Of a stretch of 46,783 nt of DNA, positions 4,015 to 38,264 are shown piece after piece. The DNA is taken from assembly GCA_016188575.1 (NCBI GenBank), contig JACPHN010000233.1, forward strand, positions 1 through 46,783, written 5' to 3'. The notes under the pieces are model-generated. The model made no database searches and was not told the DNA's origin. It was given only the letters and a program-made list of their open reading frames with translations. This DNA comes from Candidatus Schekmanbacteria bacterium (GTDB lineage Bacteria; CSSED10-310; JACPHN01). Position 1 is the stretch's first letter. Every line of letters begins with the position of its first letter. The translations under genes were made by a program, and so were the position numbers.

Positions 4015-4478
4015 CACTGACCGGCGCGACGGACAAGAAATGGGAAAAGCGGCCGGCACGGGACTCGGTCACATCGTTGGACGCACCGGCGCGGCGCTGG
4101 ATTCGGCTGGTCGCAGCCGGTGTTCTCGCAACGGCTGCGATCGTCATGGCTGTGCTCGTGGCGGTGGCGGTTGCGGGCAGGGAGGAAGTGGAACGGTCCA
4201 TCCTTGAATACGGGCTTGCCGCTGCCGTAGACGGGGCAACGCTACCTTTGCACGGCGCTTTTTCGCCCGAGCGCCTTCGCCATACCGCGTCGCAATTCGT
4301 GGAGGCCTATATTCACGGCGGCAGCGTCACGACGGAAGAGCTTCACGCGGTATATTCCGTGGTCGCCGCCGCGTGCGCCGACCGCTCGGTGACCGCAGCC
4401 GAGGCGCTATCCATGCAGCGGCAGATCGACGAGGCGCTGCTGCCCGCCGCGACCGACTCCGCGTCGCCGGCGGAGTGA
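4011..4478 (+). CDS. Small single-pass membrane protein, unknown function
   Basis: About 155 residues from a GTG at 4011 that overlaps the upstream stop as GTGA, which implies translational coupling. One strong hydrophobic helix lies at about residues 30-54 (LVAAGVLATAAIVMAVLVAV). A soluble C-terminal part of about 95 residues follows, predicted mostly helical and ending in an Ala/Ser/Pro tail. I recognise no family. The tight spacing on both sides, with lptFG starting 13 nt later, puts it in the same operon as the LapA-like and LPS-export genes. A longer upstream reading frame runs over two other genes and is rejected. Confidence 0.65.
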   Translation: MTLTGATDKKWEKRPARDSVTSLDAPARRWIRLVAAGVLATAAIVMAVLVAVAVAGREEVERSILEYGLAAAVDGATLPLHGAFSPERLRHTASQFVEAYIHGGSVTTEELHAVYSVVAAACADRSVTAAEALSMQRQIDEALLPAATDSASPAE

Positions 4479-8606: not shown

Positions 8607-8775
8607 GCTTGGCAACTCCAGGTCTCCTGAGGAGTGTATCGATCTGCGGCGTAGACTAGCAGCTTTTTCCCCGCGCCGAAAGTGTCTGCAACCGCGCTTC
8701 GGCGACCCGCGCCACTGCTGTCGGCTCCGCACTGTGGCTGGCAAAGCCGAATTAGCTCGTGATACGTATTGCTCT
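8607..8775. promoter_or_regulatory. Divergent intergenic region between NYN gene and tamB
   Basis: This 169 nt gap separates the two divergent start codons and must hold promoters for both the leftward NYN-crotonase unit and the rightward tamB-omp85 unit. I could not fix -35/-10 boxes with confidence. Confidence 0.4.
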
Positions 8776-12849: not shown

Positions 12850-15811
12850 GCCGCTGTGGTGCCGCGGGTGCTACCTGGCCTTGGCGCTCACCGTGCTTCT
12901 CAGCCCCGTCTCGGCCAGCGATTCCAGCGTTGGGCCGCTTGCTCCCGCCATGTCGGCGGCCGGGCCTATCGCTCCAGGCGCCGGCCCGGCGCTCATGGCG
13001 AGTTATGCAGGAAGGGTTGTTGGTGCCGTAACTCTGCGCGGCGCGGAGGGAATCGATGAGCGTCTCGACGAGTATCTGCTGCAGCGGCCTGCAGACCGCC
13101 TGGACCCGGAGCTGCTGCGGCAAACGATGCGGCTGCTGCACCTGCTGGGCCGGTTCAGAAGCATCTCCGTCGCGCTGCACCCCGGCCACGGCGACACCGT
13201 AGACGTCACGTTTGACGTCATCGCCTTGCCTCTGGTGCGGGCGCTGAGGTTCAGCGGCGATGGCGCGTTGCTCAAGTGGCGCGGGCCCTGGGGCGTGCGC
13301 CGCCGTGACTTGGAGCGCGCCGCGGTGGACATTGCGGCGGGTCTTCCGTTCCGGCAGGCTGCGGCCGACGACGCGACTCATCGCGTGGCGGAAGTCTATC
13401 GCCGCCACGGGTACTGGGAGGCGAGCGTGAAGGCGATGGTAACCGAGGTCGCTGCTGGTGGCGACGTCGCGATCGAGATCCGCATTGACCGGGGCGAGCC
13501 GATGCGCGTCAGTCGCGTCGACCTTTCCGGTGCAGATGCCCTCGGTTTTGCTGACAAGCTCAAGAAGAGGCTGCACCACAAGCCGGGCCGGCGGCTCGTC
13601 ATGGACGAGCTCGAGAAGGATCGGGAAAGACTGCTACGCGATCTCGCCCGCCGCGGTTTTCCTTTCGCGACCGCGGAGCTGACCGTTGGCAAACCTGCAG
13701 ACGACGGCAGGAGCGTCCCAGTTGCGATCCGGATCGAACCCAAGCAGCGCCTGAATGTCGAGCTCACCGTGCCTCTGCACGCCTGGAACCTGCATTGGCT
13801 GCTCTTCAAGCTCGTGGGCAACTACCGCCTGGGGCGGGCCATGATCTCGGATGTCCTGCCGATCTGGGAGCGACGCAGCATGGACCCGACCACACTGCGC
13901 GAAGCGACCGAGAGTCTGCAGCGCTTGTGGCAGAGCCATGGCTATCCGGATGCGGATGTCCGGGTCACCGCTCAGAACGGCGAGGACATTCAGGACGATG
14001 CCCGCACACCCGCGGACCGTATCTCCTCGGCGAGCGTTTCTGTCGCCGTTTCCGAAGGTCACCGCATGCGCGTTGGGCGGATATCGTTCGCGGGGAACCG
14101 GCAGATCCTCTCGGCCGAGCTGCTTGGCGCGATGAATTTGCGCCCGCGCGGGTGGCGTTCACCCCTGTTCCGCAAGGAGGTGCTCGAGAGCGACGTCGCC
14201 GAGCTCGCGCGCCGGTATCGGGCGCGCGGGTTCCGCAATGTTTCCGTCCGTGTCGCGCAGGTTTCGTATCGGCGTGAGCGAATCGCCGACATTGACATCC
14301 AGATCGACGAGGGCCTCCGGTCCGTCGTGACCGCCGTCCACGTTATCGACCCGCGGCAAACGCGCAACACGGACGAGCTGGCCGGCGAGCTCCCGTTCGG
14401 CGTGGGAGATCCCTACGTTCAGGCGCTTGTGGACGCGGGCGCTGACCTCGTCCGCGAGCGCTACCACCAGCGCGGCTTTGCTTCAGTCTCCGTGGATCCC
14501 GAGGTCGAGCTGGTGGACTTCGGTCGCCAGGCGACCGTCCGGTATCACGTCGAGCCCGGCATGCAGTATTTGCTCGATCACATCGTCATCGCTGGCGCTC
14601 CGGGAACGAAGCGGCGCGTTATCCGCCGCGGCATCTCACTGCAATCTGGTGCACCGCTCAGCGTGGAAGGCATCTTCGCCATACGCCAGGAGCTGCAGCG
14701 CGCTCGCCTTTTCGATGTCGTCACGGTGGTGCCGAGCACAGTCGGCGAGGTGAAGCGGCAGCATACGACCCTGCGGAACCTCGTCGTGCGCCTCAAGGAC
14801 CGCAAGGCCGGCCTGTTCGAATTCGGTTTCGGTTGGGCGACCGAGGATGGCGCGCGGACGTTTGGAACGATCGGGCACACCAATATCATGGGCAGCGCCC
14901 GCCGTATAACGCTCTCGGCGGATATCAGCGAGCGCCGCCAGAAGCTCCTGGCGCGCTACTCGGAGCCGTGGATCTGGGCAACCCGCATGGAGCTCTCCAT
15001 TCGCACCTACATCGATCGGGAGAAGCTCACGGGCTTTTCGTTCGAGCGCTCCGGCGCCAGCGGGGTGCTGCTGCAGAAGGAGATGGTGCGCTTTTTGCAA
15101 GGGTCCGCCGAATATCGGCGCGAGTCGGTTCGCATTTTTGATCTCGGCCCGGGATCGTCGATTACCAGGGACTTCCATGGACGAGTAGACGTGGCCGAGG
15201 TCGTAGGCTCGATCACCCTGGATTCCCGAGACGACCCGTTCGCTCCGCGCCGCGGCACGCTGAGCTCCTTGAGCCTGCACTGGTCCACTCCCGCCCTCGG
15301 CGCCGAAGTGAGCTACCTGAAAGTCACTACGGGCGGCCGCTGGTATTTCCGCTTGCAGGACCAGGCGGTGGTCGCCGCCGCATTTCGCGCCGGGCTCAGT
15401 GACCGTGAGCTGCCCCTATCCGAGCGCTTCTTCATCGGGGGTGCGACCACTATGCGCGGCTTCTCCCGTTTTTCCGCCGGCCCATTTACCCGGCAGCTCC
15501 TCATTCACGCCGGCGAGACTGCGTCCCGGGAAAGCCGCAGCTTCGTCGGTGGCAATGCCATGCTGCTTTGCAACGTGGAGCTTCGCTTTCCCTTGCTATG
15601 GGGATTCAACGGCACGACGTTCGTCGACGTGGGAAATGCGTGGCGGAATCTCGAGGACGCCAGGCTCGACGACTTGCGCTATACCGCGGGAGCCGGTCTC
15701 AACTTCACGACACCAGTCGGGCCGGTGCGCTACGAGGTGGGGTGGAACCTCGATCCTCGCGATGGGGAAGAGGGGGTGGAGAGTCATCTGAGCGTCGGGT
15801 TCGCGTTCTAG
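12842..15811 (+). CDS. Omp85/TamA-like outer-membrane protein with seven POTRA-like units
   Basis: About 989 residues from ATG 12842, overlapping the tamB stop. A signal peptide (LALALTVLLSPVSA) is followed by about 630 residues that I divide into seven POTRA-like alpha/beta units. Typical pieces are VRALRFSGD, MRVGRISFAGN and YLLDHIVIAGAPG, each opening a unit. The C-terminal surface-antigen (D15) barrel occupies roughly 665-989. It carries the loop-6 signature MRGFSRF and ends LSVGFAF with a terminal aromatic. BamA has five POTRAs and TamA three, so this protein is longer. The overlap with tamB argues for a TamA role, though a second BamA copy is possible. The final stop shares CTAG with the converging gene. 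Confidence 0.9.
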   Translation: MSEPLWCRGCYLALALTVLLSPVSASDSSVGPLAPAMSAAGPIAPGAGPALMASYAGRVVGAVTLRGAEGIDERLDEYLLQRPADRLDPELLRQTMRLLHLLGRFRSISVALHPGHGDTVDVTFDVIALPLVRALRFSGDGALLKWRGPWGVRRRDLERAAVDIAAGLPFRQAAADDATHRVAEVYRRHGYWEASVKAMVTEVAAGGDVAIEIRIDRGEPMRVSRVDLSGADALGFADKLKKRLHHKPGRRLVMDELEKDRERLLRDLARRGFPFATAELTVGKPADDGRSVPVAIRIEPKQRLNVELTVPLHAWNLHWLLFKLVGNYRLGRAMISDVLPIWERRSMDPTTLREATESLQRLWQSHGYPDADVRVTAQNGEDIQDDARTPADRISSASVSVAVSEGHRMRVGRISFAGNRQILSAELLGAMNLRPRGWRSPLFRKEVLESDVAELARRYRARGFRNVSVRVAQVSYRRERIADIDIQIDEGLRSVVTAVHVIDPRQTRNTDELAGELPFGVGDPYVQALVDAGADLVRERYHQRGFASVSVDPEVELVDFGRQATVRYHVEPGMQYLLDHIVIAGAPGTKRRVIRRGISLQSGAPLSVEGIFAIRQELQRARLFDVVTVVPSTVGEVKRQHTTLRNLVVRLKDRKAGLFEFGFGWATEDGARTFGTIGHTNIMGSARRITLSADISERRQKLLARYSEPWIWATRMELSIRTYIDREKLTGFSFERSGASGVLLQKEMVRFLQGSAEYRRESVRIFDLGPGSSITRDFHGRVDVAEVVGSITLDSRDDPFAPRRGTLSSLSLHWSTPALGAEVSYLKVTTGGRWYFRLQDQAVVAAAFRAGLSDRELPLSERFFIGGATTMRGFSRFSAGPFTRQLLIHAGETASRESRSFVGGNAMLLCNVELRFPLLWGFNGTTFVDVGNAWRNLEDARLDDLRYTAGAGLNFTTPVGPVRYEVGWNLDPRDGEEGVESHLSVGFAF

Positions 15812-22880: not shown

Positions 22881-22925
22881 CCCCGCCCTCACCTCGCCCC
22901 ACAAACGGGGGAACGGAGGGGGGCG
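22881..22925 (+). repeat. Dispersed GC-rich repeat, copy B
   Basis: A short copy with C-rich block, small CCCC-ACAAAC-GGGG type fold and the core GAACGGAGGGGGG (22911-22923). It starts 6 nt after the methyltransferase stop, in the same orientation as copy A. It overlaps the 3' end of the YCF48-like gene on the other strand. The tail shared by A and C is missing. Confidence 0.6.
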
Positions 22926-25387
22926 CCTACGACACTTCGAAAGGAGCATCGCAAGCCCTTCGGCCGACGCCGTATTCTTGACCGCAACGCCAGCCAACCG
23001 CCGAACGGCAATGCCAGGAGCAGGGTCGCAAGCGGCGAGATCGCCGGGACTGGGCGGTCATCGTCGGCGTTGATCACCAGCACACTGGTCGTCTTCAGCC
23101 CCGCGTAGCGGGGATCCGTACTGGTGCTTGCGCCGAGACGCACGCGGTACACCACATCGCCGTCCACCTCCTTGTCGTCAACTCCCGATACCGTAACGGT
23201 TTGCACAGTGCTCCAGTTGCTGGGGTCAAACACCAGCCTGTCCGGCGCGACGAGCCCCTCCGACGGGTCGCTCGCGCTCACCTCGATCTCTACCGAGGCA
23301 GCAGGCGCAATCCTGAGCGCCACCCCAAAGCTGGCCGATCCCGCTGCCGACTCGGACGTGGTGAGGCTGGCTCCAGCGAAGACGTTGATCAATGGGCGGT
23401 TCAGCGAAAATGCACCCCCGCCGGCTGTCCCCGCGTAGATCGGCGCGTCAGGATCAGGCGCCAGCATGAGGGCACGCACATCGGCAATCCGCAACCCCAC
23501 ATTGAGCTCGCCGAGTGAGACGGCAAAGGGGTTGTCTACCGGCCTGAAAACGCCGCGGCTCGTGCCGACATAAACCGCCTGCGGCGAGGTCGGATCCGGA
23601 GCCACGGTCCAGACGGCCGCATCGATCGGGTTCAGGAATGGTGCCCAGCTCTCGCCGCCATTTGTGCTCTTGAATACCTCGCCCCAGATACCCGCGTACA
23701 CAATCCGCGGCTCTTGAGAATCGACTGCCACCGCGTAGACGGCACCCGGCGTCATGCCGTCGCTCGCCATTACCCACGTACGGCCTCCATCCGTCGTCTT
23801 GGCTACGCCTTCGGTCGAACCCGCAAACAGCGTTTGCGGCGCCAGTGGGTCGAGCGCGAGCGCAAAGATGCCCGAGCTCGTCAGCCCGCTTCCGGTCGGT
23901 GCCCAGCCCTGGCCCCCGTCGGTCGTCTGAAATACGCCGCCGTCCATCGTGCCCGCATAGATCGTCGACGGCGCGGTTGGATCGAGGGCCAGGGCGCGCA
24001 CATCAGTGCCCAACAGACCGGTGTTGGCCGCCTGCCAACTGCTACCGCCGTTGCTGCTCGCGAACACGCCGCCACCAAGACTGCCCGCGAAGATCGTCTG
24101 GGGCGAGGTCGGGTCCACGGCGAGGGCGCAGACGCTCAGACTTCCCAGATCCGCGCTCTCGTTTCCCCAGGTTGCACCACCGTCGCTGCTCTTGACAACA
24201 CCGCCCGAGAGCCTTCCAGCGTACAAGGTCGCCGCTGACGTTGGGTCCAGGGCCAGGGCGCACACCCTGGAGCTGGTTATGCCCTCGCTCGCGGGTTCCC
24301 AGCGAGAACCGCCGTCCGTGCTCTTGAACACGGCGGCATCCTCCGTGCCGGCGTACACGGTCTCCAGCGACCCGGGATCCACGGCAAGTGCGCGCACCGT
24401 TGACGCCTCGATGCCGGTGCTCGCGGCGCTCCAGGTCGCGGCGCCATCGTCGCTGCGGAACACTCCGGTCCCCCACGTCCCCGCATAAACCACGCCCGAA
24501 TCCCCCGCCAGCGCCAGGATGTCGAGGTTGGTCAGCCCGGCTCCTGCCTGGCCCCAGGTGGTCCCCGTGTCCGTGCTCTTGAAGACGCCCCCCTCGACCG
24601 AACCCGCGTAGAGCGTGTCTGGTGCAGCGCTGTCGATGGTCAGCGCCCGCACATCCAGGCTGGAGAGCCCGGCGCTTGCCGCCGTCCAGCTTCCGCCGTC
24701 GTCGAGGCTCTTGAAGACGCCGCCGCCTGCGGTGGCCGCGTACAGCGTCCCGGTGACCCTGGGATCCACTGCCAGAGCCGTCACCGACGAGTGGGTCAAC
24801 CCGGAAGAGCTGGATGACCAGTTGGCGGCCTCGTCTCTGCTGACGAAGATGCCCATTCCCCAGGTACCCGCGTAGACGGCGGTAGGGGAGTAAGCGGAGA
24901 TGACCAGCGCGTTGATGAAGGGGGAGGTCAGGCCGTCGTTGGTCGAGGCCCACTGACTCCCGCCGTCGGTCGATTTGGCAACGCCGCCACCCCAGCTTGC
25001 AGCATAGAGGACCTGGGGGGAGCTGGGATCGACCGCCAGGGCACGGACCCGGAAGTCGTCGAGCCCGGTGTTGATCGCAATCCAGCTCAGGCCACCGTCG
25101 GTGCTCTTGAACACGCCGCCGCCCTCGGTGCCCACGTAGATCGTCTCTGGGGACGTGGGATCGATGGCCAGGCAGATCGCGCTGCCTCCCACCGGCCCGA
25201 TGCTTGTCCACGCTTCGGTCGCGCCCAGATCGCCCTGGGGTCGGAGCAGTGCGAGAGCGAGGGCAAGGCCTGACGCGAGGAGCAGCCGCGCTGTTGGGGC
25301 ACGTCTTGTTGCCGTGCTCCAGGCGGAGGTTCGTTGTCGAAAAAGGGACAGGTTCGGAGTACGGCCGGCGATCGGTCGAGAAAACAT
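22889..25387 (-). CDS. Exported YCF48/BNR-like repeat protein (14 repeats) with Calx-beta-like module and C-terminal anchor
   Basis: About 832 residues from ATG 25387, with GGAG 8 nt upstream. The N-terminal export signal has a long basic n-region and the core LLLASGLALALALL. Twelve clear repeats of about 44 residues follow (VRALAVDPSSPQVLYAASW, then GGGVFKSTDGG..W), plus two degenerate ones, giving 14. This would suit two seven-bladed propellers. A Calx-beta-like stretch follows (LVFDPSNWSTVQTVTVSGVD). Near the end is PVPAISPLATLLLALPFGG with RIRRR, a sorting-signal-like tail. About 22 further residues are read through repeat copy B, perhaps after loss of an original stop. It starts 19 nt after the giant gene, so one operon. 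Probably surface or periplasmic; ligand unknown. Confidence 0.82.
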   Translation of the reverse strand: MFSRPIAGRTPNLSLFRQRTSAWSTATRRAPTARLLLASGLALALALLRPQGDLGATEAWTSIGPVGGSAICLAIDPTSPETIYVGTEGGGVFKSTDGGLSWIAINTGLDDFRVRALAVDPSSPQVLYAASWGGGVAKSTDGGSQWASTNDGLTSPFINALVISAYSPTAVYAGTWGMGIFVSRDEAANWSSSSSGLTHSSVTALAVDPRVTGTLYAATAGGGVFKSLDDGGSWTAASAGLSSLDVRALTIDSAAPDTLYAGSVEGGVFKSTDTGTTWGQAGAGLTNLDILALAGDSGVVYAGTWGTGVFRSDDGAATWSAASTGIEASTVRALAVDPGSLETVYAGTEDAAVFKSTDGGSRWEPASEGITSSRVCALALDPTSAATLYAGRLSGGVVKSSDGGATWGNESADLGSLSVCALAVDPTSPQTIFAGSLGGGVFASSNGGSSWQAANTGLLGTDVRALALDPTAPSTIYAGTMDGGVFQTTDGGQGWAPTGSGLTSSGIFALALDPLAPQTLFAGSTEGVAKTTDGGRTWVMASDGMTPGAVYAVAVDSQEPRIVYAGIWGEVFKSTNGGESWAPFLNPIDAAVWTVAPDPTSPQAVYVGTSRGVFRPVDNPFAVSLGELNVGLRIADVRALMLAPDPDAPIYAGTAGGGAFSLNRPLINVFAGASLTTSESAAGSASFGVALRIAPAASVEIEVSASDPSEGLVAPDRLVFDPSNWSTVQTVTVSGVDDKEVDGDVVYRVRLGASTSTDPRYAGLKTTSVLVINADDDRPVPAISPLATLLLALPFGGWLALRSRIRRRPKGLRCSFRSVVGAPLRSPVCGAR

Positions 25388-25395
25388 GGTCTTGG

Positions 25396-25399
25396 CTCC
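25396..25399 (-). promoter_or_regulatory. Ribosome binding site deciding the YCF48-like gene start
   Basis: GGAG on the minus strand 8 nt before ATG 25387. Upstream in-frame starts at 25417 and 25534 lie inside the giant gene and have no comparable site. Confidence 0.5.
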
Positions 25400-25406
25400 G
25401 TGGCAC

Positions 25407-28400
25407 CTAGACACCATACCGCCTTCGGGCGCGGCGGGCGCGCAGCAACGCCGTGCCCACGCCGAGCAGCGCGGCAACCAGCAAGGCGAGCGACGATTCC
25501 AGGGGCACGTCCGGATCCCCACCGATGACCGCAAGCTCCGGACCCTCGACGGGGGCGCCGAGCACTCTGAGCGAGCTGCCGCCCATGGCCTGTATCACCA
25601 CCGCCGAGTCATCTGGCACGGTGGCCTGGAGCGTGGCACCGATCGCGGTGCTCGCGCGAACCCTGACGACTACCAGCAGCGTGGTCTGCGTTCCCGGCGC
25701 CAGCTCACAAAGGCCAACGTTGTCGAAGAGCAGATTGCCAGCGCCATCCTGAATGGCACGCGCCAGGTAGGAATCCCCCTCATCGAGCACCCCGTCGCCG
25801 TCGCGATCGTAGGCGAGCCAGGCAAACGAAACGGTCTTGCGAGCCGCCCCCGCCAGGGCGATCCGCAGAGATCTCAGGCACGAGCTGGGTGCGGCCTTGG
25901 ACACCCGCAGGTTGATGCCGAGAAGCACGGAGGGCTTCCCCCCGGCGCCGATCAGCCGGTACTGGGTCCCCTGGTTCGCGCTCACCGCCACCCCGTCGAA
26001 GACCCGTATCCCATTGCTACCGCCGATCTCACTCCACACACCCGCATTGTTGCGCGCCCGCGCCCAGATGAAGTACCGCTCCCCTGCGCTCAGCGACAGA
26101 CCTGCCATCAGCTCGGTGCGCTGAGCCGTGTCAGTCCATGGCACCACATCGCAGCCTCCGCCGCTCGTGCCGGCGCAGTACTGGTAGCCGACGACACCGG
26201 AGTCGGGATCCTCGGCCCTCCACACGCCCAGCAGCGGCTCGCCGGACGCCAGCCAGTCCCCGTTGTCGTAGACCCGGGGCGTCGAAGGCGGCGTCCCGTC
26301 AATCGACACCACCGGTAACTCGACCACGAGCTGCGGGCTACGCAACCCGCTGGTCAGGTCGCCGCCGTACGCGGCCACAGCCACCCGGTAACGCCGGCCC
26401 CTGGTCAGCTCGGTGTCGAGCAGCACGCTCGTCTCTCCGATGACGGGCACAACGTCTTCGAGGCGCTCGGTAGACCGCATTCCCTGGCAGTAGACGCGGT
26501 ATCCGACCGCCCCCGGCACGGCGCTCCAGCTCAGCAGGACCGCGTTTCCCGACGGAGTGGCGTCTACCCACGCGGGTGCTGCCAGGATCGACTCCGGCTT
26601 GACCAGCACGGAACCGCTGGCGTACGCGACCCGAGGTACGTTCTCGCCATCGTCCGCCACCGCGTAGATGCGATACTGCCCGGGCGGCACGGCCGAAGTG
26701 TCCCATTCGAGCTTCCCATCCCGGGCCGGCAGGCCGGTGGCGATGGTGGTTCCATCCAACGCCTCCGCGCCAGTGCCATAGTAGACAGACACCTGCGCGT
26801 CACCATCGGCGTCCGTCGCCGCGTAGGCGATGGTCACTTTGCTCTGGGCCGAGACATCCACCGCCGGCGCCGTCACGTGAATCGTTGGGGGCGAGTTTGG
26901 AACCACCAGCTCGACCACGTACTCGGATGCCGTCGGATTGCTCAAGGCCAGCGACCACGGCCCGGCCTCCGGTGCCACCACCCGGTACCACGCATCGATC
27001 GTCCCGCGGCGGTAGAAAATGCGCGGGTCGTCCGTGTCCGGGCTGATGAGCCCCCCCGTCGGCGTGTGCAGCGTGAAGTCGGTCGCCTCACTCGCCTCGC
27101 TCCAGCCGACGCGGACCAGGAGCTGCTCTACCCCCGGCGGCACCGTCCAGAGCTGCTCGTACCGCGCCGGCAGCAGACCGGCGGGTTGCGCGACGTCCAG
27201 TGTTCGGTAGCGCCAGGGCGCCCAGCCGGGCTTTCTCAGATTGACCCCGAAGCTCACGTCAGCGAAATTCGCCGACTTGAAGAACGTCCATTTCACGCTC
27301 ATGACGAAGGCAACGTCCGCGATGCCGGCCGGGATCACGAGCTCGGCGCGGAACCTCTCGTTGTCGGCCGTCGCCTCGATGCTCGCAAGGCTTGTGCCGC
27401 CTACCCAGGGGACGAAGTCCGGGATCTTCATGTCGCCTCGCATCCGTGCCCTGAGCTCGGGCGGAAAATACGAGATGACGAGCGTGCCGGTGTAGAAACC
27501 GCCGGGCCACGCGACCCAGCCTTCCGCCTTTGCCCCCGCCTTCGGCGCCCACACGACCTGCAACTTCGCGGCGCCGATTTGCACGATGCCGAGCAGCTTC
27601 GCCGTTCCCTGCACCGTCGCGGAGCCGTCGAGTCTGATCTCGAGCTCGCCGTCGTAGCTCATGAGCGCGATATCATCCAGAAACTTCTTGCCCTGCGTCA
27701 GGCCCACCCCCCCCAGGATGACCAGGTTCGTTTTGGAAAAAGGCCGGTATCCGAGACCCTCGATACCGGCTTCGATGCTCTGCAAGTAGACCCCCGTCGA
27801 CCCGATCGGCTTTTCGATATCCTCGAGCCACAGCACGACCGTGTCGAGGCGGCCCTCGATGATCCCTACCGTGGCGCCGGCCCACATCTCCTTTACCTTG
27901 AAGCCGCCTCCTATCTTGAGGGACTCGGTCCTGCCGTTCCAGCCGAGCTCACTGAGCTTGAAGATGCCATCCTCATCGGGAATGACGACCTCCCCACTCA
28001 CCGAGAACCCCCCGAACATGACTTCCTTTCCGGGGCAGAGCCGCGCGTCCTCCAGCTCGAGCTCGGCTTTACCGCCGCTGGCGAAGTACATCAGCGGGAT
28101 GTTGAAGCTGCCGTTCACCGTAACGCAGTTGTCCTCGAGGTCAAGCTCGCTCACATCCACGTTGAGGCCGAGGAGGAGCGGGTGAATCTCCGCGGGCACA
28201 GGAACGAACATCGGCTCCTCGGCGGCGAGCACCGTTCCGTCTACGGTGAATCGCGCGCTTCTATCGGTCACCTCGACTCGCTTCCGCAATAATCCGACCC
28301 CGTCGGCATAGAGTCGGTCGTTGGTTTGGAAATCCTTTGGGCCTGGACGGACAGTGATCATCTGATCCGTCCCGAGCACGCCGTTGAACCGGACGTTTTT

Positions 28401-31400
28401 TTCCATGAACACCGTATCGTCGCTCCCCCAGCGCCGAATGGCGCTGATGACGATGTCGTCGATCTGAAGTGCCCCAAGGACGACGACCCCGTCCGAGCTG
28501 ACCGGCTCGCTCACATTGCCCCAGGCGTCGGTCGCTCTGACCCAGACGAAGTGGGTAAGGCCCGATGTGGCCTGAGAGGAGGAAGTCCAGCTCGTCGCCA
28601 TCCCTACGTTCTGCCAGACGGTAGGGATGGGGCTCCGGGCCAGCTCTTCGCTGGTGCCGACCTCGTAGTAGGCGATCACGCCATTGTCGTGGAATCCCGA
28701 CCAGTTCGCCGAGAGGGTGCCGTGGTCCTGTTCGTCGATGTCCGCCCCGGTTCCATCGTTCACCGACCCGGACATCTCGGGTGGGCTGTCGTCGGTCTTC
28801 GCGCCGTCGGACCACGCCAGGGCTGACCAGTTGCCGGCGACGTCCTGTACAGTCACGCTGGCGTAGTAGGTCTCGCCCTTTTTCAAAGCGAGCACCGGTG
28901 CAACCATCGCAGTGGCCTGGACGGCTACGGGGCCCCAGAGATAGCTAGCAGAGCTCCGTGTCGTGGCCAGCCCCACATGGTAGGCAGGTCGCAGACCGCT
29001 GTGCACGTCGCGGAATCCTTCCCAGTGGGCGCTGAGCGGTGTTTCCTTCGTTGGCAGGAGATCGATGTCGGCGCCCCCACCGCCGTCGCTCACGGTCCCG
29101 GCGATGGGCGGAACGGAATCGACCATGACGCCGTCGGAAACCGCCGGATCGCTCAAGTTGCCCAGCGCGTTGGTGGCCCGGACCCCAACGTAGTAGGTCG
29201 TTCCGTCGTGGAGCGCGAGACCTCCAACTGTGGCTTGCGTGACCACGCCCACGTACGTCCAGCCCTGGACATCGGTAGCGGCAAGCGCCGACCCGATCGA
29301 AAACTCGTAGGCGGTGATCGTCGAGCTCGCATCGGTGAAACCCGACCACCGAGCCGAGATCGTAGTCCGCGACTGCTGGACGTCTTGGTCCACCGCCCCG
29401 TTGCCGTCGAGGACCGTGCCTGGCTGTGGTCCGTCCAAGCGGATCACTACGCCATCGGATGCTGCCGCGTCGCCGCGGTTTCCAATCGCGTCCACGGCCC
29501 GGACGCCGACGTAGTAGGAGACCAGATGTTGCAGAGAGAGGGCCGAGTTGCTGGCCTCGGTTCCGTCGACGCGCGTCCAGTCCTGGACCATTGTCCCGGA
29601 TTGCGTGGCAATCATCCACTCATAGTAGGCGAGCTGGGCCCCGTCGGCAGTGAATCCCGACCAGCGAGCGGAGATCGTTGTAGCCGATCCTTGCATGTCG
29701 ATGTCCACGGGCCCCAGGCCGTCCCAAACGGTTCCGGGCGAGGGCCCCGTCAAGTCGACGGCAACGCCGTCCGAGGTGGCAATGCCGCCGGTGTTGCCGA
29801 GCATGTCGTAGCCGCGGACGGAGACGAAGTAGGTGGTGCCGGCCGCGAGCGCCAGCGCCGCGTTCGTCGCAGACGAGACGTTGCCGAGGCTGGTCCATCC
29901 CTGCAGCTCGGTCCCGCCGGCGGTGCGGCCGATCGCCCACTGGTAGCCGGCGAGGCCACTCCCCGCACTGGCGAAGCCGCTCCAGTTGGCCCAGATGGTG
30001 GTGGTAGCGGTTTGAAAATCCACATCCGCCCCCGTCCCGTCGTTTACCGAGCCCGCGGTCGGCCCGGTCAGGTCAATGGTCACGCCGTCCGTGGTTGCGG
30101 CCGCGCCGACATTGCCGGCGCCGTCGACGCCCCGCACCGCGACGTAGATGGTCATCCCGTCTGCCAGCGTCAGCCCGCTCCTGGTCGCGGACGACACGTT
30201 GCCCACGCGGGTCCACCCCTGGAGCTGCGTACCGCCCGCGGTCGTGCCGATGGCCCAGTCGTAGGCGGCGACGCCGACACCGACGTCGGCGAACCCACTC
30301 CAGTTGGCCGCAATCGTCGTCGCCGACGCCTGGAAGTCGATGTCCGTGCTGCTCCCGTCATTCACCGTTCCCGCTGTCGGCGGCGTTCCGTCCACGGTCA
30401 CCCCGTCGGACGACGCCGCGCCGCCCACATTTCCCACGGCGTCGACGGCGCGCACCGACACCCAGTAGGTGCTCCCCAACGCCAGGGTCAGGCCACCGGT
30501 GGTCGCCGCGGTGACATTGCCGGCGCTCGTCCAGCCCCGGACTTGGGTTCCGCCCGGGCTCGTGCCGATCGCCCAGTCGTAGGAGGCAATCCCGCTGAGC
30601 GCGTCGCTGAAGCCCGACCAGTTGGCGTCGATGACGGTCGCCGAACCCTGATAATCCACGTCGGCGCCCGTGCCATCCCGAACCGTTCCCCCGGTTGGCG
30701 CCACGAGGTCAGCCATGACCCCGTCGGAAGATACCGGGTTTCCTACGTTCCCCACGGCGTCGACGGCGCGCACCGACACCCAGTAGGTGCTCCCCGACGC
30801 CAGGGACAGGCCACTGGCGGTCGCCGCGGTGACGTTGCCGGCGCTCGTCCAGGCCCGGATCTGGGTTCCGCCGAGGCTCGTGCCGATCGCCCAGTCGTAA
30901 GAGGCAATCCCGCTGAGCGCATCGGCGAAGCCCGACCAGTTGGCGACGATGACAGTCCCTGAGCCCTGATAGTCCACATCGGCTCCAGCACCGTCCAGGA
31001 CTGTTCCCGCCGTTGGCGCCACGAGGTCGACGATGACCCCGTCGGACGACGCCGGGCTCCCTACGTTTCCCATGGCGTCGACGGCCCGCACCGACACCCA
31101 GTAGGTGCGCCCCGACGCCAGGGACAGGCCACTGGCGGTCGCCGCGGTGACATTGCCGGCGCTCGTCCAGGCCCGGATCTGGGTTCCGCCGAGGCTCGTG
31201 CCGATCGCCCAGTCGTAGGAGGCAATCCCGCTGAGCGCATCGGCGAACCCTGACCAGTTGGCGTTGATGACGGTCGACGAGCCCTGATAATCCACATCGG
31301 CACCGGCGCCGTCCAGCACCGTCCCCCCGGTTGGCGCCGCGAGATCGACGGTGACCCCGTCGGACGTCGCCACCGACCCCACGTTGCCGGCGACGTCCGA

Positions 31401-34400
31401 GGCGCGCACGGAGACGTAGTAGGACCCTCCGGCCTGGAGCGCGAGCGCCGCGTTGGTGACACTCGTCAAGAGTGCCACATTCGTCCACGCCTGAACCTCC
31501 GTTCCGCCCGGAGAGGTTCCGATCGCCCACTCGTAGGCGGCGATCCCGCTGCCGCCCTCGGCGAACCCCGACCAGTTGGCCGAGAGCGTCGTGAGCGACG
31601 TCCGATAGTCGATGTCCGCACCGTCCCCGTCGTTGACGGTTCCGGCCGCCGGGGACGTGGCGTCGACGGTCACGCCGTCGGAGCTCTTTGGCGAGCCGAC
31701 GTTGCCCACGCCGTCGATCGCGCGCAAGGAGACGTAGTAAGTCGTCGCGTCGGCGAGGGCCAGCGACGCGTTGGTGGCTGCGAGGACGTCCCCGACGTTC
31801 GCCCAACTCTGCACCTCGGTGCCCCCGGGCGTGGTGCCGATCGCCCATTCGTATGAGGCGACCCCGCTCGCCGCGTCCGCGAAGCCCGACCACGTCGCCG
31901 AAATCGTCGTCGTGTCGGTCTGCCATGTGAGCTCTGCCCCTGCGCCGTCGCTGACCGCGCCACCCGCCGGCGGCGTGACGTCCACCCGAACGCCATCGGA
32001 GATTGCCGCCGGTCCGGTATTGCCGACGTTATCCGTGGCGCGAACGGAGACATAGTGGTCGACCTCGGCCAGTGCCAACCCGGATGCCGTAGCGCTGACG
32101 TCGCTACCGGCGCCCGTCCATCCGCGCACTTCCGTTCCGCCGGGCGTCGTGCCGATCGCCCATTCGTAGGAGGCGACCCCGCTCGCCGCATCGGCGAAAC
32201 CCGTCCAGTTGGCCGAGATCGTCGTGGAGGATTGCTGAAAGTCGACGTCCGCACCCGTGCCATCGGCGACCGACCCCGCGGCCGGTCCGCTGGAGTCCAC
32301 CCGGACTCCATCGGAGACGGCGGCCGTTCCGGCGTTGCCGACGTTGTCGGTGGCGCGCACCGACACATAGTAAGGCGCCTCCGGCAGCGTGAGCCCGCTG
32401 TTGCTGGCACTCACGGCCAGACCCACATCCGTCCACGCCTGCACGTCACTTCCACCGGGCGTCGTCCCGACCGCCCACTCGTAGGAGGCGATGCCGCTGG
32501 CGGCATCGGAGAAGCCGGACCAGTTGGCCGAGATCGTGGTCGTCGATTGCTGAAAGTCCCCGTCCGCGCCCGCTCCGTCGGCGACCGTCCCGGGCGAGGG
32601 CCCGGCCGTATCCACCGTGATGCCGTCGGACACGGCCGGGGTGCTCGCGTTGGAGACGTTGTCGAGCGCCCGCACCGCCACGTAGTAGGTTCCCTCGGCC
32701 AGGCTCAACGACGGGTTGGTCGCGCTCACCGCCATGCCCACGCCGGTCCAGCTCTGGATCTCCGTTCCGCCGGCCGTGGCCCCAATCGCCCACTCGTAGC
32801 TGCGAAGCCCCGTTTCCCCATCGCCGAAGCCCGACCAGTTGGCCGAAATCGTCGTGGTCGAGACCTGGAAGTCGATATCCGCCCCTGCACCGTCGTCGAC
32901 GCTGCCCGCCGTGGGTGCAGTCGCGTCCACCATGACCCCGTCGGAAACGGCCGCGGATCCCACCTGACCGAGGTTGTCCGTCGCTCGCACGCTCACGTAG
33001 TAGGTGCCATCGGCGAGGCTCAAGCCGGTGGTGCTGGCGCTGGTTGCGACGCCAACGCCCGTGAAGCCCTGGACCTCGCTGCCCCCCGGCGTACTGCCGA
33101 TCGCCCACTCGTAGGAGGCGACGCCGCTGCCGCCGTCGGAGAAGCCCGCCCAGTTGGTTGCAAGGGTCGTCTTGGAGCTCTGGGCGTCGATGTCGGCGTC
33201 CGTCCCATCGCTGACCGTGCCGGCCGCGGGCGGCGTGGCGTCGGCGGCGACGCCGTCGGAAGTGCCCGCCGGTCCGGGGGTGGCGAGGTCGTCGACGGCC
33301 CGCACGGAGACGTAGTAGGCGGTCCCCTCCGACAGGCTCAGGCTGCTATTGGTGGCATTGGTTACCAGGCCGACGTTGGTCCAGCCCTGGAGCTCCACGC
33401 CGCCACGGGTCGTGCCGATCGCCCACTCGTAGGAGGCGATCGCGCGTCCAACGGGCGGCGTGAATCCGGACCAGTTGGCCGCCATGGTGTCCAGGGAGGT
33501 CTGGAAGTCGACGTCGCTCCCCGCCCCGTCGTCGATGCTTCCGGCGCTGCCCAGAGCGGTGTCGGGGGTCACGCCGTCAGAGGTCGCCGCGGAGCCGGTG
33601 TTCCCGGCGTTGTCCAGCGCCCGAGCCGAAACGTAGTAGCTCGTCGCGGGGTTCAGACTCAGGCCGCCGTTCGTCGCCACGGTGGCCGTGCCCACCCCGG
33701 TCCAGGTCTGAACGTCGGTCCCACCGGGCGATGTTCCGATTGCCCACTCGTAGGACGCGATTCCGCTCACGCCGTCGGTGAATCCCGACCAGTTGGCGGA
33801 AAGGCTCGCCGTGGACCCCTGGACATCGATGTCGGCAGCGGTCCCGTCGGAGACGACCCCGGCTGCGGGGCCATCAGTATCCACCGTGACGCCATCGGAG
33901 ACCGCCGCTGCGCGTACGTTGTCCAGGTTGTCATGGCCGCGTACCGTCACGTAGTAGGTCGTGCCGTCGCTCAGGCTCAGCCCCGACTGCGTGGCGGAGG
34001 TGCTCAGGCCAATGTTCGTGAAGGCCTGCACCTCGGTCCCACCGTCCGTGGTGCCGATTGCCCACTCGTAGTACGCGACGCCGCTGCCCTGATCCGGGAA
34101 GGCGGACCAGTTGGTGGAAAGTGTCGTCGTCGAGCTCTGGTAGTCGATGTCCGCCGCCGGGCCGTCATTGATCGTAGTTGGATCGGGCCCCGCCGTGTCC
34201 ACCTGGACGCCGTCGGAGAGCGCCGCGGAACCGACGCTTCCGACGCCGTTCACGGCCCGCACCGCCGTGTAGTAGGTGCCGAGGTGAGCAAGGCTCAGGC
34301 CACTCTGCGTCGCCGTCTGGGTGAATCCCGCCGAGGCCCACGCCATGATCTCCTGACCCCCGGGCGTGCTCCCGATCGCCCACTCGTAGGAGGCGATCCC

Positions 34401-37400
34401 GCTGGTCGCGTCGGCGAAGCCCCACCAGTTGGCCGAGATCGTCGTGAGGGAGGTCTGGAAGGCGATGTCGCTCACCGGGCCGTCCCCGGCGGAGCCGGCC
34501 GCCGGTGGCGTCGTGTCGACCGTCACGCCGTCGGACGTCGCCGGCGCGCCCGAATTGCCCACGGCGTCGGTCGCGCGAACGGAGACGAAGTAGGTGGTGG
34601 CGTGGGCCAAGGTCAGGCCGGCGTTGCTCGCCGAGGTCGACAGCCCGGCGCTGGTCCAGCCCTGGACCTCTGTACCGCCGGAGGTGGTCCCGATCGCCCA
34701 CTCGTAGGAGGCGATGCCGCTGCCCCCATCGTTGAAACCGCTCCAGCTCGCGGCGATGGTGGTCGTCGAGAGCTGGTAGTCCACATCCGCGCCCGCCCCG
34801 TCATCCACCGCACCGGCCCCGGGCCCCGCCGTGTCCACCGTCACACCGTCGCTGGTCGCGACGTCCCCGGTGTTGCCGGCCCCGTCGATCGCCCGCACGG
34901 AGACGTAGTACGTGGTCCCGTCGAAAAGCGTCAAAGACGAGCTCGTACCACTGAGGACGTCGCCAACGCTCGTCCACCCCTGCACCTCGGTTCCTCCCGA
35001 GCTGGTGCCGATCGCCCACTCGTAATCCGCAATGCCCGTGCCGCCGTCGGAGAATCCGGTCCAGTTGGCGACGATCGTGTCCACCGACACCTGGAAATCG
35101 ATGTCCGCACCGCCGCCGTCACGGACCGTCCCGGCGGCCGGCGGCGTGCCGTCCACGGTGACTCCGTCGGTCGATGCGACGTCGCCGACGTTCCCGACCG
35201 CGTCGACGGCCCGAATCGATACCCAGTAGGTCGTCCCCTCGCTCAAGGTGAGGTCAGTCCGGTTCGTCGAGGTTACGTCGCCGACGTTGACCCACCCCTG
35301 CACCTCGGTTCCACCCGACGTGGTGCCAATCGCCCACTCGTAGGAGGCGATCCCGCTCAGGGGGTCGTTGAAGCCTGACCAGTTGGCCTGGATGGTCGTC
35401 GTTGACGCCTGATAGTCGACATCCGCCCCCGACCCGTCGGCGACTGTCCCGGCCGTCGGCCCCGTCGTGTCCACCCGTACCCCGTCGGAGACCGCCGCCG
35501 TGCCCGTGTTGCCGGCAACGTCGATTCCCCGCACGGAAACGTAGCACAGGGTGCCGTTTGCCAGGCTGAGCGACCCATTTGTGGCGCCTGTGCTGGCGCC
35601 CACGTTGGTGAACCCCTGCACGTCGATTCCTCCAGGGCTCGTCCCGATCGCCCACTCGTAGGAGCCGATCCCGCTCCCGACATCGCTGAAACCGCTCCAG
35701 TTTGCGTTGATTGTCGAGATCGACGACTGGAAGTCGAGGTCCGCGTCGGCCCCGTCGTTGACGGCCCCCCCCGTTGGTGGACTGGCATCGACCAGCACGC
35801 CGTCCGAGCTGACAGGGGTGCTCGGCAGCGAGTCCTCATCGACGGCGCGAACGGAGACGTAGTAGGTGGTGCCGCTGCTGAGCGACAGCGAGCCGTTGCT
35901 GCCGCTCGTGGTCAACCCGACATTGGTAAAGCCCTGCACCTCCGTGCCCCCCGCGGTCGTACCGATGGCCCACTCGTAGCTGCCGATCCCGCAGCCGTCG
36001 TCCGTGAAGCTGTTCCAATTGGCCACAATGCTCGTGGTGGAGGTCTGGATGTCGATGTCCGCGCCAGCGCCGTCGTTGACCGCTCCAGCGGCTGGGGGTG
36101 TCGAGTTGCAGAGGCCGGATGAGAACCTCCCGAGGAGCAGATCGCTATTGTTGGAATCAATCCACTGGGCGCCCACCATAAAGACCGACCCGTCCGGGCC
36201 GACAGTCACTTGCCGGGCCGAGTCAGACCAGGAGAAGGTGCCGCCCAGGTAGGTGGTCTGCTGAAGCGTGGTAAGCGCCGGATCGAGCCGCGCGACATAG
36301 GCATCCCCCCCGCCCTGCATCGTATCCACAGCGCTACCCGTAGTCCCGGGGAAGCTCGCGGACTCCGTAAATCCGGCCACGTAGAGGGCGCCGTTGCCGA
36401 GTGCACACCCGGCGTCGCTGTCGCCGTCATTGCCTGTTCCACCCAGGTAGGTTGCATTGGTCCGAGACAGAAGGTCCAGGGAAAAGAGTGCCACGATCAC
36501 ATCTCTTACTCCCGCAAAAGTTGGCTGTGCGCCTCCGCTCGTCCCCGGAACGCCGCTGCCGGCTGTTACCCCGCAGAGGTAGACCCCACTGCCGCCAAGC
36601 GCCAGGTCCCAGCCATATTCACCCGCCGGGCCGCCGAAGTAGGTTGCCCGGGCGCCCGAGATAAGGTCACGGTCCAACCGTGCAAGGAAGGCGTCCAAGC
36701 TGCCGCCCGGAGAGCTCTGCGCAGCCCCGGATACCCAGGGCCAAGAGGTCGCGTTGGTGTCACCCGCAACGAAAACGCCGCTGGCGCTGACCCGGACGGC
36801 CCGGACTGAATCGTCATTGTTACCGCCAACGTAGGTGGCCCGAACGAGGGAGCTCAGGTCGGTGTTGAAACGAGCGGCGAAACCGTCGCTTGCGCCCTCG
36901 AAGCTGCTGTCGGCGCTTCCCGAAACTCCGGGTAGGGCCGAGGACGTGGTCGTCCCAACCAGGTACACGTCACTGTCGATCGCCGCCACGCGAGCCGTGG
37001 TCTCGTCGCCAGCCGTCCCGAAGTAGCTCGATTTTTCGAGGGTCTTCAGGTCCGAGCTGAGGCGCGCGACGAAAGCATCGTATCCACCTTGCCAGGTGGC
37101 CTGGTAGCCCCCGCTCGTGGGGAAATTGCCTGAATTGGTGACCCCCGACACGAAGACCTTGTTGGTGAGCAACGCCACGCCCACGCCGTCTTCAGAACCA
37201 CCGCCGCCCAAGTAGGTCGCCTGGTACAATGTCCCCAGCGTCAAGTCAAGACGCAGCGCGACCGCGTCATACTGGCCCGCGTTACTCGGTTGCGCCCCAC
37301 CGGTCGTTCCCGGAAACTGGTCCCCCGGGTTTTCATAGTAGCTTTTTCCCACCACGTAGACGTCAGTGCCGGTTATGGCAATGTCGGTTGCGAGGTCATA

Positions 37401-38264
37401 ACGGTTCCCACCGCGGTAGCTGTAATGGAGCAGCGGATCGATGACGAGCGGGTAGTCCGGGTCGTAGCCGTCGCCGATCTCGAACCCGTAGACCTGCCCG
37501 TCCAGGCGATACGCCACCGTGACCGGCGCGCGGCCGCTTTCCCGCTCTTGGTAGGCGACCGGCCTGGTGAAGGCGAGGTCGCCGTTGCCAGTCGTCGCAA
37601 CGAGCGTCCCGTCGTCGCCGGCGCGCAGCGAGGCGCCCTCCATCTCGAGCCGGATCCGATCCGGCTGGGCCCCTTTGGCGACTCGGAAGATCTTCTCGAC
37701 GTTCTTTCCCCTCGCCACGAGCTCCACGTCGATCCCCTTCCAGACCTCGCCGAGCTCGACGGCTCGACGCGTCTTGACCTCCGGTCGCCAGCGGTCGGGA
37801 TCGTTGCCGATAAAGAAGCTGAGATTGGTCGGTGACACCTCGCCTCCCGCCGGCGACGGCGTGCCGCCGGCGAAGCGCTCGACAATCGCCCAGCCCGAGC
37901 CGCTTGCGGCCTCCGGCTCGCCGGCGCCCATCGCCGCATGGGCAACCCCGCCCTGGAGCTCCTCGCCCCGTTCGGGCCGCGGTGGCAATGCGTAGACCAG
38001 CTCCCCCTCGTGGGTTACAAAGACCGCACCGGCGAACGTCTGGGCGTAGTAGGCCACACGCTCGTCCACCTGGCCCTCGTTGTCGATGAAGGGAACGACG
38101 ACCTGCGCCAGCCGCTCCGCGACCTCTTCGGAAGTCGGGGCCGCTTGTTCATTCGGATCGTGGAAGTGGAACCAGAGAGCGAAACCGGCGATCAGCGCCG
38201 CGGCGACGGCGGCACCTCGACACACACGTGACGGCAATCCGCGGACGCTACGCAGAATGAACAT
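25407..38264 (-). CDS. Giant exported repeat protein (about 4,285 residues) with SBBP propeller and 24 tandem repeats
   Basis: Start ATG 38264 (MFILRSVRGL) has GGAGAGGG just upstream; ATG 38333 is an alternative. Order: signal anchor (about 15-33); an N-terminal domain with IDNEGQVDERVAYY and VIDPLLHYS, typical of proteins with SBBP propellers; seven SBBP repeats marked by TYLGG (about 345-717); 24 tandem repeats of about 106 residues (718-3262) with ANWSGF, YEWAIGT, YYVSVRA and SDGV landmarks, probably beta-sandwich modules; a unique region (3263-3890) with beta-rich pieces; a fibronectin-III-like domain (about 3893-3985); one more divergent copy of the repeat (about 3985-4085); and a C-terminal VPLESSLALLVAALLG helix with RARRARRR. 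A very large surface or matrix protein is likely; adhesion is a guess. It is the first gene of a two-gene operon. Confidence 0.88.
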   Translation of the reverse strand: MFILRSVRGLPSRVCRGAAVAAALIAGFALWFHFHDPNEQAAPTSEEVAERLAQVVVPFIDNEGQVDERVAYYAQTFAGAVFVTHEGELVYALPPRPERGEELQGGVAHAAMGAGEPEAASGSGWAIVERFAGGTPSPAGGEVSPTNLSFFIGNDPDRWRPEVKTRRAVELGEVWKGIDVELVARGKNVEKIFRVAKGAQPDRIRLEMEGASLRAGDDGTLVATTGNGDLAFTRPVAYQERESGRAPVTVAYRLDGQVYGFEIGDGYDPDYPLVIDPLLHYSYRGGNRYDLATDIAITGTDVYVVGKSYYENPGDQFPGTTGGAQPSNAGQYDAVALRLDLTLGTLYQATYLGGGGSEDGVGVALLTNKVFVSGVTNSGNFPTSGGYQATWQGGYDAFVARLSSDLKTLEKSSYFGTAGDETTARVAAIDSDVYLVGTTTSSALPGVSGSADSSFEGASDGFAARFNTDLSSLVRATYVGGNNDDSVRAVRVSASGVFVAGDTNATSWPWVSGAAQSSPGGSLDAFLARLDRDLISGARATYFGGPAGEYGWDLALGGSGVYLCGVTAGSGVPGTSGGAQPTFAGVRDVIVALFSLDLLSRTNATYLGGTGNDGDSDAGCALGNGALYVAGFTESASFPGTTGSAVDTMQGGGDAYVARLDPALTTLQQTTYLGGTFSWSDSARQVTVGPDGSVFMVGAQWIDSNNSDLLLGRFSSGLCNSTPPAAGAVNDGAGADIDIQTSTTSIVANWNSFTDDGCGIGSYEWAIGTTAGGTEVQGFTNVGLTTSGSNGSLSLSSGTTYYVSVRAVDEDSLPSTPVSSDGVLVDASPPTGGAVNDGADADLDFQSSISTINANWSGFSDVGSGIGSYEWAIGTSPGGIDVQGFTNVGASTGATNGSLSLANGTLCYVSVRGIDVAGNTGTAAVSDGVRVDTTGPTAGTVADGSGADVDYQASTTTIQANWSGFNDPLSGIASYEWAIGTTSGGTEVQGWVNVGDVTSTNRTDLTLSEGTTYWVSIRAVDAVGNVGDVASTDGVTVDGTPPAAGTVRDGGGADIDFQVSVDTIVANWTGFSDGGTGIADYEWAIGTSSGGTEVQGWTSVGDVLSGTSSSLTLFDGTTYYVSVRAIDGAGNTGDVATSDGVTVDTAGPGAGAVDDGAGADVDYQLSTTTIAASWSGFNDGGSGIASYEWAIGTTSGGTEVQGWTSAGLSTSASNAGLTLAHATTYFVSVRATDAVGNSGAPATSDGVTVDTTPPAAGSAGDGPVSDIAFQTSLTTISANWWGFADATSGIASYEWAIGSTPGGQEIMAWASAGFTQTATQSGLSLAHLGTYYTAVRAVNGVGSVGSAALSDGVQVDTAGPDPTTINDGPAADIDYQSSTTTLSTNWSAFPDQGSGVAYYEWAIGTTDGGTEVQAFTNIGLSTSATQSGLSLSDGTTYYVTVRGHDNLDNVRAAAVSDGVTVDTDGPAAGVVSDGTAADIDVQGSTASLSANWSGFTDGVSGIASYEWAIGTSPGGTDVQTWTGVGTATVATNGGLSLNPATSYYVSARALDNAGNTGSAATSDGVTPDTALGSAGSIDDGAGSDVDFQTSLDTMAANWSGFTPPVGRAIASYEWAIGTTRGGVELQGWTNVGLVTNATNSSLSLSEGTAYYVSVRAVDDLATPGPAGTSDGVAADATPPAAGTVSDGTDADIDAQSSKTTLATNWAGFSDGGSGVASYEWAIGSTPGGSEVQGFTGVGVATSASTTGLSLADGTYYVSVRATDNLGQVGSAAVSDGVMVDATAPTAGSVDDGAGADIDFQVSTTTISANWSGFGDGETGLRSYEWAIGATAGGTEIQSWTGVGMAVSATNPSLSLAEGTYYVAVRALDNVSNASTPAVSDGITVDTAGPSPGTVADGAGADGDFQQSTTTISANWSGFSDAASGIASYEWAVGTTPGGSDVQAWTDVGLAVSASNSGLTLPEAPYYVSVRATDNVGNAGTAAVSDGVRVDSSGPAAGSVADGTGADVDFQQSSTTISANWTGFADAASGVASYEWAIGTTPGGTEVRGWTGAGSDVSATASGLALAEVDHYVSVRATDNVGNTGPAAISDGVRVDVTPPAGGAVSDGAGAELTWQTDTTTISATWSGFADAASGVASYEWAIGTTPGGTEVQSWANVGDVLAATNASLALADATTYYVSLRAIDGVGNVGSPKSSDGVTVDATSPAAGTVNDGDGADIDYRTSLTTLSANWSGFAEGGSGIAAYEWAIGTSPGGTEVQAWTNVALLTSVTNAALALQAGGSYYVSVRASDVAGNVGSVATSDGVTVDLAAPTGGTVLDGAGADVDYQGSSTVINANWSGFADALSGIASYDWAIGTSLGGTQIRAWTSAGNVTAATASGLSLASGRTYWVSVRAVDAMGNVGSPASSDGVIVDLVAPTAGTVLDGAGADVDYQGSGTVIVANWSGFADALSGIASYDWAIGTSLGGTQIRAWTSAGNVTAATASGLSLASGSTYWVSVRAVDAVGNVGNPVSSDGVMADLVAPTGGTVRDGTGADVDYQGSATVIDANWSGFSDALSGIASYDWAIGTSPGGTQVRGWTSAGNVTAATTGGLTLALGSTYWVSVRAVDAVGNVGGAASSDGVTVDGTPPTAGTVNDGSSTDIDFQASATTIAANWSGFADVGVGVAAYDWAIGTTAGGTQLQGWTRVGNVSSATRSGLTLADGMTIYVAVRGVDGAGNVGAAATTDGVTIDLTGPTAGSVNDGTGADVDFQTATTTIWANWSGFASAGSGLAGYQWAIGRTAGGTELQGWTSLGNVSSATNAALALAAGTTYFVSVRGYDMLGNTGGIATSDGVAVDLTGPSPGTVWDGLGPVDIDMQGSATTISARWSGFTADGAQLAYYEWMIATQSGTMVQDWTRVDGTEASNSALSLQHLVSYYVGVRAVDAIGNRGDAAASDGVVIRLDGPQPGTVLDGNGAVDQDVQQSRTTISARWSGFTDASSTITAYEFSIGSALAATDVQGWTYVGVVTQATVGGLALHDGTTYYVGVRATNALGNLSDPAVSDGVMVDSVPPIAGTVSDGGGGADIDLLPTKETPLSAHWEGFRDVHSGLRPAYHVGLATTRSSASYLWGPVAVQATAMVAPVLALKKGETYYASVTVQDVAGNWSALAWSDGAKTDDSPPEMSGSVNDGTGADIDEQDHGTLSANWSGFHDNGVIAYYEVGTSEELARSPIPTVWQNVGMATSWTSSSQATSGLTHFVWVRATDAWGNVSEPVSSDGVVVLGALQIDDIVISAIRRWGSDDTVFMEKNVRFNGVLGTDQMITVRPGPKDFQTNDRLYADGVGLLRKRVEVTDRSARFTVDGTVLAAEEPMFVPVPAEIHPLLLGLNVDVSELDLEDNCVTVNGSFNIPLMYFASGGKAELELEDARLCPGKEVMFGGFSVSGEVVIPDEDGIFKLSELGWNGRTESLKIGGGFKVKEMWAGATVGIIEGRLDTVVLWLEDIEKPIGSTGVYLQSIEAGIEGLGYRPFSKTNLVILGGVGLTQGKKFLDDIALMSYDGELEIRLDGSATVQGTAKLLGIVQIGAAKLQVVWAPKAGAKAEGWVAWPGGFYTGTLVISYFPPELRARMRGDMKIPDFVPWVGGTSLASIEATADNERFRAELVIPAGIADVAFVMSVKWTFFKSANFADVSFGVNLRKPGWAPWRYRTLDVAQPAGLLPARYEQLWTVPPGVEQLLVRVGWSEASEATDFTLHTPTGGLISPDTDDPRIFYRRGTIDAWYRVVAPEAGPWSLALSNPTASEYVVELVVPNSPPTIHVTAPAVDVSAQSKVTIAYAATDADGDAQVSVYYGTGAEALDGTTIATGLPARDGKLEWDTSAVPPGQYRIYAVADDGENVPRVAYASGSVLVKPESILAAPAWVDATPSGNAVLLSWSAVPGAVGYRVYCQGMRSTERLEDVVPVIGETSVLLDTELTRGRRYRVAVAAYGGDLTSGLRSPQLVVELPVVSIDGTPPSTPRVYDNGDWLASGEPLLGVWRAEDPDSGVVGYQYCAGTSGGGCDVVPWTDTAQRTELMAGLSLSAGERYFIWARARNNAGVWSEIGGSNGIRVFDGVAVSANQGTQYRLIGAGGKPSVLLGINLRVSKAAPSSCLRSLRIALAGAARKTVSFAWLAYDRDGDGVLDEGDSYLARAIQDGAGNLLFDNVGLCELAPGTQTTLLVVVRVRASTAIGATLQATVPDDSAVVIQAMGGSSLRVLGAPVEGPELAVIGGDPDVPLESSLALLVAALLGVGTALLRARRARRRYGV
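28475..36112 (-). repeat. 24-copy, 318-bp in-frame tandem repeat array
   Basis: Twenty-four consecutive units of about 106 codons lie inside the giant gene. Each opens with a PPxAGTVxDGxGADxDxQ-like head. Spacing is exact where checked: the GGATTATCAGGG-type head (CCCTGATAATCC on the plus strand) recurs at 30646, 30964 and 31282, 318 bp apart. Units vary most near both ends of the array (units 21-24 and 1-2). Confidence 0.9.
30392..31345 (-). repeat. Three near-identical neighbouring units (16-18) of the array
   Basis: These three successive 318-bp units share long identical DNA runs, for example the stretch encoding the GIASYDWAIGTS segment and the AGNVTAAT segment. Other units share mainly protein-level similarity. 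This suggests recent duplication or gene conversion. Confidence 0.75.

Follow-up and report, generated by a model that had tools for sequence, protein, structure and literature searches.

Twenty-four tandem units of predicted FN3 fold in a 4,285-residue protein of Candidatus Schekmanbacteria with export-type termini

The window analysed here, that is the whole stretch of 46,783 nucleotides of contig JACPHN010000233.1 (assembly GCA_016188575.1, Candidatus Schekmanbacteria bacterium), contains on its minus strand an open reading frame of 4,361 residues, or 4,285 when counted from the ATG at 38264. This start, upstream of which lies a ribosome-binding-like stretch, GGAGAGGGGG, matches the length given for the protein in a preliminary description of this DNA. 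The features of the gene are collected in Table 1: a head made of a DUF7948 domain and propeller-like repeats, a very long array of contiguous units with a predicted fibronectin-III (FN3) fold, and a C-terminal module closing with a transmembrane segment and an Arg-rich tail.

Table 1. Features of the array gene, as positions in the window
Feature	Position	Strand	Remarks
Whole gene	25407..38264	-	ATG 38264, stop 25407; 4,285 residues from ATG
N-terminal hydrophobic segment (signal or anchor)	38157..38225	-	Hydropathy
DUF7948 domain (PF25778)	37431..38090	-	Pfam 154.6 bits, cut-off 27
About seven SBBP-like propeller repeats	36105..37424	-	By eye; homologues in this genome match SBBP
24-unit array, predicted FN3 fold	28476..36104	-	ORF residues 797-3339; units contiguous, 105-109 residues each
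Units 16-18, most recent duplicates	30390..31343	-	83-91% identical
C-terminal body, beta-rich, ~620 residues	26613..28475	-	Common to L040 and L041
Canonical fn3 domain	26298..26612	-	Pfam fn3 26 bits, cut-off 25; conserved in L040 and L041
25th unit	25998..26297	-	ORF residues 4066-4165 (3990-4089 from ATG); 48-51% identical to its L040/L041 counterpart
C-terminal tail	25407..25997	-	Conserved in L040 and L041; transmembrane segment ~25443-25508, then Arg-rich end

The preliminary description had proposed an array of 24 units of about 106 residues, and both the count and the boundaries are borne out. Aligned locally with unit 4, the other units of the array score 143-384 and unit 25, which stands apart from them, scores 131, while the maximum reached by 500 shuffled units is 85. 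Four residues, D11, W30, Y43 and G102, are invariant across the alignment of all 25 units (25/25), and the signature DGxGADxDxQ is present in nearly all of them. Mean amino-acid identity is 58% for units 1-20 and 54% when all 24 array units are taken together, the most divergent members being units 23 and 24. Units 16-18 form a tandem of 318-bp period (88% matches) and their high identity points to recent tandem duplication; because many deep forks of the tree are unresolved, the history of duplication can be read only for these units and for pairs such as 12-13. The array is real, and it is chiefly notable for its copy number, the domain being ordinary in kind. Literature searches retrieved no paper with the string YEWAIGT, and nothing on the array of this protein.

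Ahead of the array, the head-plus-long-stalk architecture put forward earlier is recovered, with DUF7948 at 154.6 bits followed by propeller-like repeats. The seven SBBP repeats that had been placed before the array must be understood in a looser sense: seven propeller-like repeats are visible by eye, but the Pfam SBBP profile (PF06739) finds no match in the head, and the tie to that family goes through proteins of the same genome that do match SBBP, with which the repeats align at 35-37% identity. The termini are of export type, hydropathy placing a hydrophobic segment at both the N- and the C-terminus. No clear cleavage site was found in the N-terminal segment, no CTERM sorting model matched the C-terminal tail, and Exosortase_EpsH has one match in the genome. 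Elsewhere in the window, adjacent TamB-like and Omp85/POTRA genes (8590-15811, plus strand) fit a cell with an outer membrane.

The C-terminal module, made of the body, the fn3 domain, unit 25 and the tail, is shared without the array by two paralogs, L040 and L041, at ~25-44% identity depending on the part. The body, which has no Pfam match across most of its length, is in part conserved in two further genomes from this phylum (L044 and L045), and its AlphaFold2 model, derived from a six-row alignment, has a mean pLDDT of 41. One of the paralogs (L041, G000:C202, around position 5700) is split over two reading frames within the body, as a result of a frameshift or of an assembly error. A divergent 25th unit had been announced near the C-terminus, after an FN3-like domain; it lies at residues 3990-4089 from the ATG, and the domain that precedes it passes the Pfam fn3 cut-off. 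Identity of this unit to its equivalent in the paralogs is 51% and 48%, as against 32% over the full length to the best-scoring array unit and 29% on average to the array, and in the tree its branch falls among those of the paralogs. Because it is nearer to them on both counts, unit 25 is part of the conserved C-terminal module and not a stray or displaced copy of the array, an origin that we rejected on the same grounds. Seen in this light, the array looks inserted between a head of SBBP type and a C-terminal module that was there before.

What kind of domain the unit is may be approached through the structure predicted for two joined units. Built from 31 two-unit rows, the AlphaFold2 model has a mean pLDDT of 97.0 and a pTM of 0.85, and it folds each 106 residues into an independent seven-strand beta-sandwich, with an identical strand order in both halves, as the earlier reading of the unit had anticipated. 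The top PDB matches of this model are nearly all FN3 tandems (Foldseek, VIA-align 2). Foldseek returned 233 PDB chains at E <= 0.001, the matches listed being FN3-containing chains, and the predicted viral proteins that match the model include many named FN3 proteins. The A77-A78 pair of titin (3lpw_B) superposes with Z 12.8 over 185 aligned residues at an rmsd of 6.8, a high value over two domains, as would be expected if the inter-domain angle differs, and the FN3 tandems of PTP-delta and LAR reach Z 11.6. A profile of the 25 units, run against PDB sequences, finds fibronectin and monobodies, the best match being a three-domain fibronectin chain (3.5e-5) and the best single domain reaching 8.7e-4; these amount to few independent matches, since they are largely fibronectin domain 10 and its engineered copies. 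In the prediction each unit is such a sandwich, with its core Trp on strand B and its Tyr on strand F: in the two-unit alignment W30 is invariant and Y81 nearly so, and both align with fibronectin. The stretch DGxGADxDxQ is conserved between strand A and the Trp-bearing strand B, where it is longer than the equivalent loop of fibronectin. On the strength of the two-unit model, of its FN3 matches and of the FN3 chains found by the unit profile, we assign the unit to the FN3 fold, as a predicted, sequence-divergent domain marked by DGxGADxDxQ between strands A and B.

The profile search that was called for against protein families has been run, and none of the units, taken singly, was seen at or above the cut-off of a Pfam or NCBIfam model. 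Weak matches are scattered over fn3, Ig_J_second, Ig_Rha78A_N, OmpL47-type and a small number of further models. With Pfam fn3 (PF00041), the single units seen stay below the 25-bit cut-off; five of the 25 match at E <= 1, the best at 0.0016, and unit 4 obtains 13.5 bits. This is why the unit is filed under the FN3 fold and not under Pfam fn3. Four of the 25 units match Ig_Rha78A_N (PF25788, cut-off 27.4), the best at E 0.013; summed over the whole array, the score for this model comes to 32 bits and passes its cut-off, as do the whole-array sums for Ig_J_second and Big_3_3. Profile-profile comparison of the units with the canonical fn3 domain of the same protein found nothing (probability 0.4%), both alignments being shallow and that of the fn3 domain counting three rows. 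The earlier remark that no named family was recognised for the unit thus holds in the sense that it lacks a specific Pfam or NCBIfam model; it does not hold as to kind, as the predicted fold is FN3 and the profile retrieves FN3 chains from the PDB.

That same lack of a match at cut-off might be taken to herald a new fold, or a domain family that is new in kind. We give this idea practically no credit and have rejected it, as the high-confidence two-unit model matches known FN3 tandems and numerous FN3 structures of the PDB. Another reading is a beta-barrel domain of OmpL47 type sitting in the outer membrane, as the corresponding model (NF047446, cut-off 40) accumulates 73.3 bits over seven stretches of the whole protein and matches 16 of the 25 units weakly. 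Yet unit 4 by itself obtains 18.2 of the 40 bits, no long hydrophobic segment is present in the array, and the predicted structure is one of separate beta-sandwiches matching FN3 domains, with no membrane barrel, so that this reading too is highly improbable; to call FN3-fold units such as these "OmpL47-type beta-barrel" is misleading.

The distribution of the unit helps to place the array in context. For the pattern search a subset of 15 units was used, the alignment of all 25 being too heterogeneous. A single scan of genome contigs yielded 19 loci, which lie in metagenome-assembled genomes (MAGs) bearing the label Planctomycetota, Myxococcales, Bdellovibrionales or unclassified bacteria, and the proteins that they encode carry the unit on unrelated heads, in 1-6 copies, as compared with the 24 found here; in the 12 genomes that were checked there are 1-8 units in each, and the counts of several relatives are lower bounds because their proteins are broken off at contig ends. 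Among 199 genomes from the phylum of L009, a MAG labelled Planctomycetota, three match at E <= 1e-10, two of them previously known, and among 60 relatives of the source genome six give a match at E <= 0.001, several being weak matches that are likely other FN3-like domains. Twenty-four is the largest number of close copies seen in one protein. The same genome also encodes, in a frame of 4,124 residues (L042, G000:C14), 21 more divergent copies placed behind a subtilase domain, with a weak dockerin-like match behind them at the C-terminus; the summed score of this protein, 58 bits, lies above the Pfam fn3 cut-off. The count of copies in homologues, which had been suggested as a check, thus sets off a copy number that is unusual among the relatives found, in a fold that is ordinary.

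Stalks made of FN3-like or Ig-like domains are a known architecture of giant bacterial surface proteins, and comparison with established cases shows what is shared and what is particular. As in the FN3 domains of titin (A77-A78, 3lpw) and fibronectin (FN-III-10, 1fna), there is about one domain per 100 residues, predicted as a seven-strand sandwich, with the strand B Trp and the strand F Tyr in alignment and tandem arrays devoid of linkers; the units differ from these in falling singly below the Pfam fn3 cut-off, in the additional DGxGADxDxQ between strands A and B, and in belonging to a bacterial protein of surface type. The best superposition of a single unit is with the N-terminal Ig-like domain of an alpha-L-rhamnosidase (Ig_Rha78A_N, 6i60), at an rmsd of 2.5 over 104 residues, which is the whole unit; there, however, it is a single domain of an enzyme, whereas here the unit is repeated in a long tandem array, and no catalytic domain was found. 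Four proteins of SBBP/DUF7948 type in the same genome (C111, C225, C185 and C102) have a homologous head, with 33-45% identity, but, unlike the array protein, none of their contigs is among the matches of the unit in that genome. Conversely, a protein of 2,400 residues from the same phylum (L007, genome G002) has the same unit and the same order of propeller head, array and C-terminal transmembrane segment, but its head is an unrelated FG-GAP propeller and it has six copies; BLAST found no similarity between it and the C-terminal body of the array protein.

We may therefore picture the protein as probably a modular extracellular stalk of FN3 fold that presents the SBBP-like propeller, with its DUF7948 domain, away from the cell. 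The 24 linker-less units would make up an extended stalk, keeping the head distant from the C-terminal module with its transmembrane segment and Arg-rich tail, by which the protein would be anchored at the surface. Lengthened by tandem duplication, this stalk would act as a spacer of adjustable length. An FN3 domain has a reach of 3.5-4 nm, so that 24 of them would extend, very roughly, over 80-100 nm. Ligand binding would fall to the head, and it is from this likely role of the head that we infer a probable surface adhesin or receptor. A rather unlikely alternative is that the array is itself adhesive, with many weak sites on its FN3-like units allowing multivalent binding of polysaccharides or of neighbouring cells, and the propeller being incidental. 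Some proteins do use FN3 domains as binding modules, and a loop signature conserved in nearly all units would suit such a role; but DGxGADxDxQ lies near the start of the unit, by the junction with the preceding one, and is not necessarily a loop that is free to bind, while a copy number going from 1 to 24, together with the differing heads of the relatives (subtilase with 21 units, FG-GAP propeller with 6), is typical of spacers.

This position at the junction brings up a further idea, to which we grant a small but slightly better chance: the units might constitute an unnamed FN3 subfamily in which the conserved acidic DGxGADxDxQ, together with the end (SDGVTVD) of the unit before it, would bind a metal ion at each junction and stiffen the stalk into a rod, by analogy with calcium in RTX adhesins. 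With the spacer as the favoured role, a repeat that was apparently unknown becomes a recognizable stalk module of FN3 fold, in an architecture where differing heads of a bacterial surface-type protein are combined with a stalk whose length has been varied by tandem duplication, from 1 to 24 copies. The product of the next gene downstream (22889-25534, minus strand) is a BNR propeller protein, Sortilin/Vps10-like, that has its own C-terminal transmembrane segment and Arg-rich tail; this gene and that of the array may be transcribed together.
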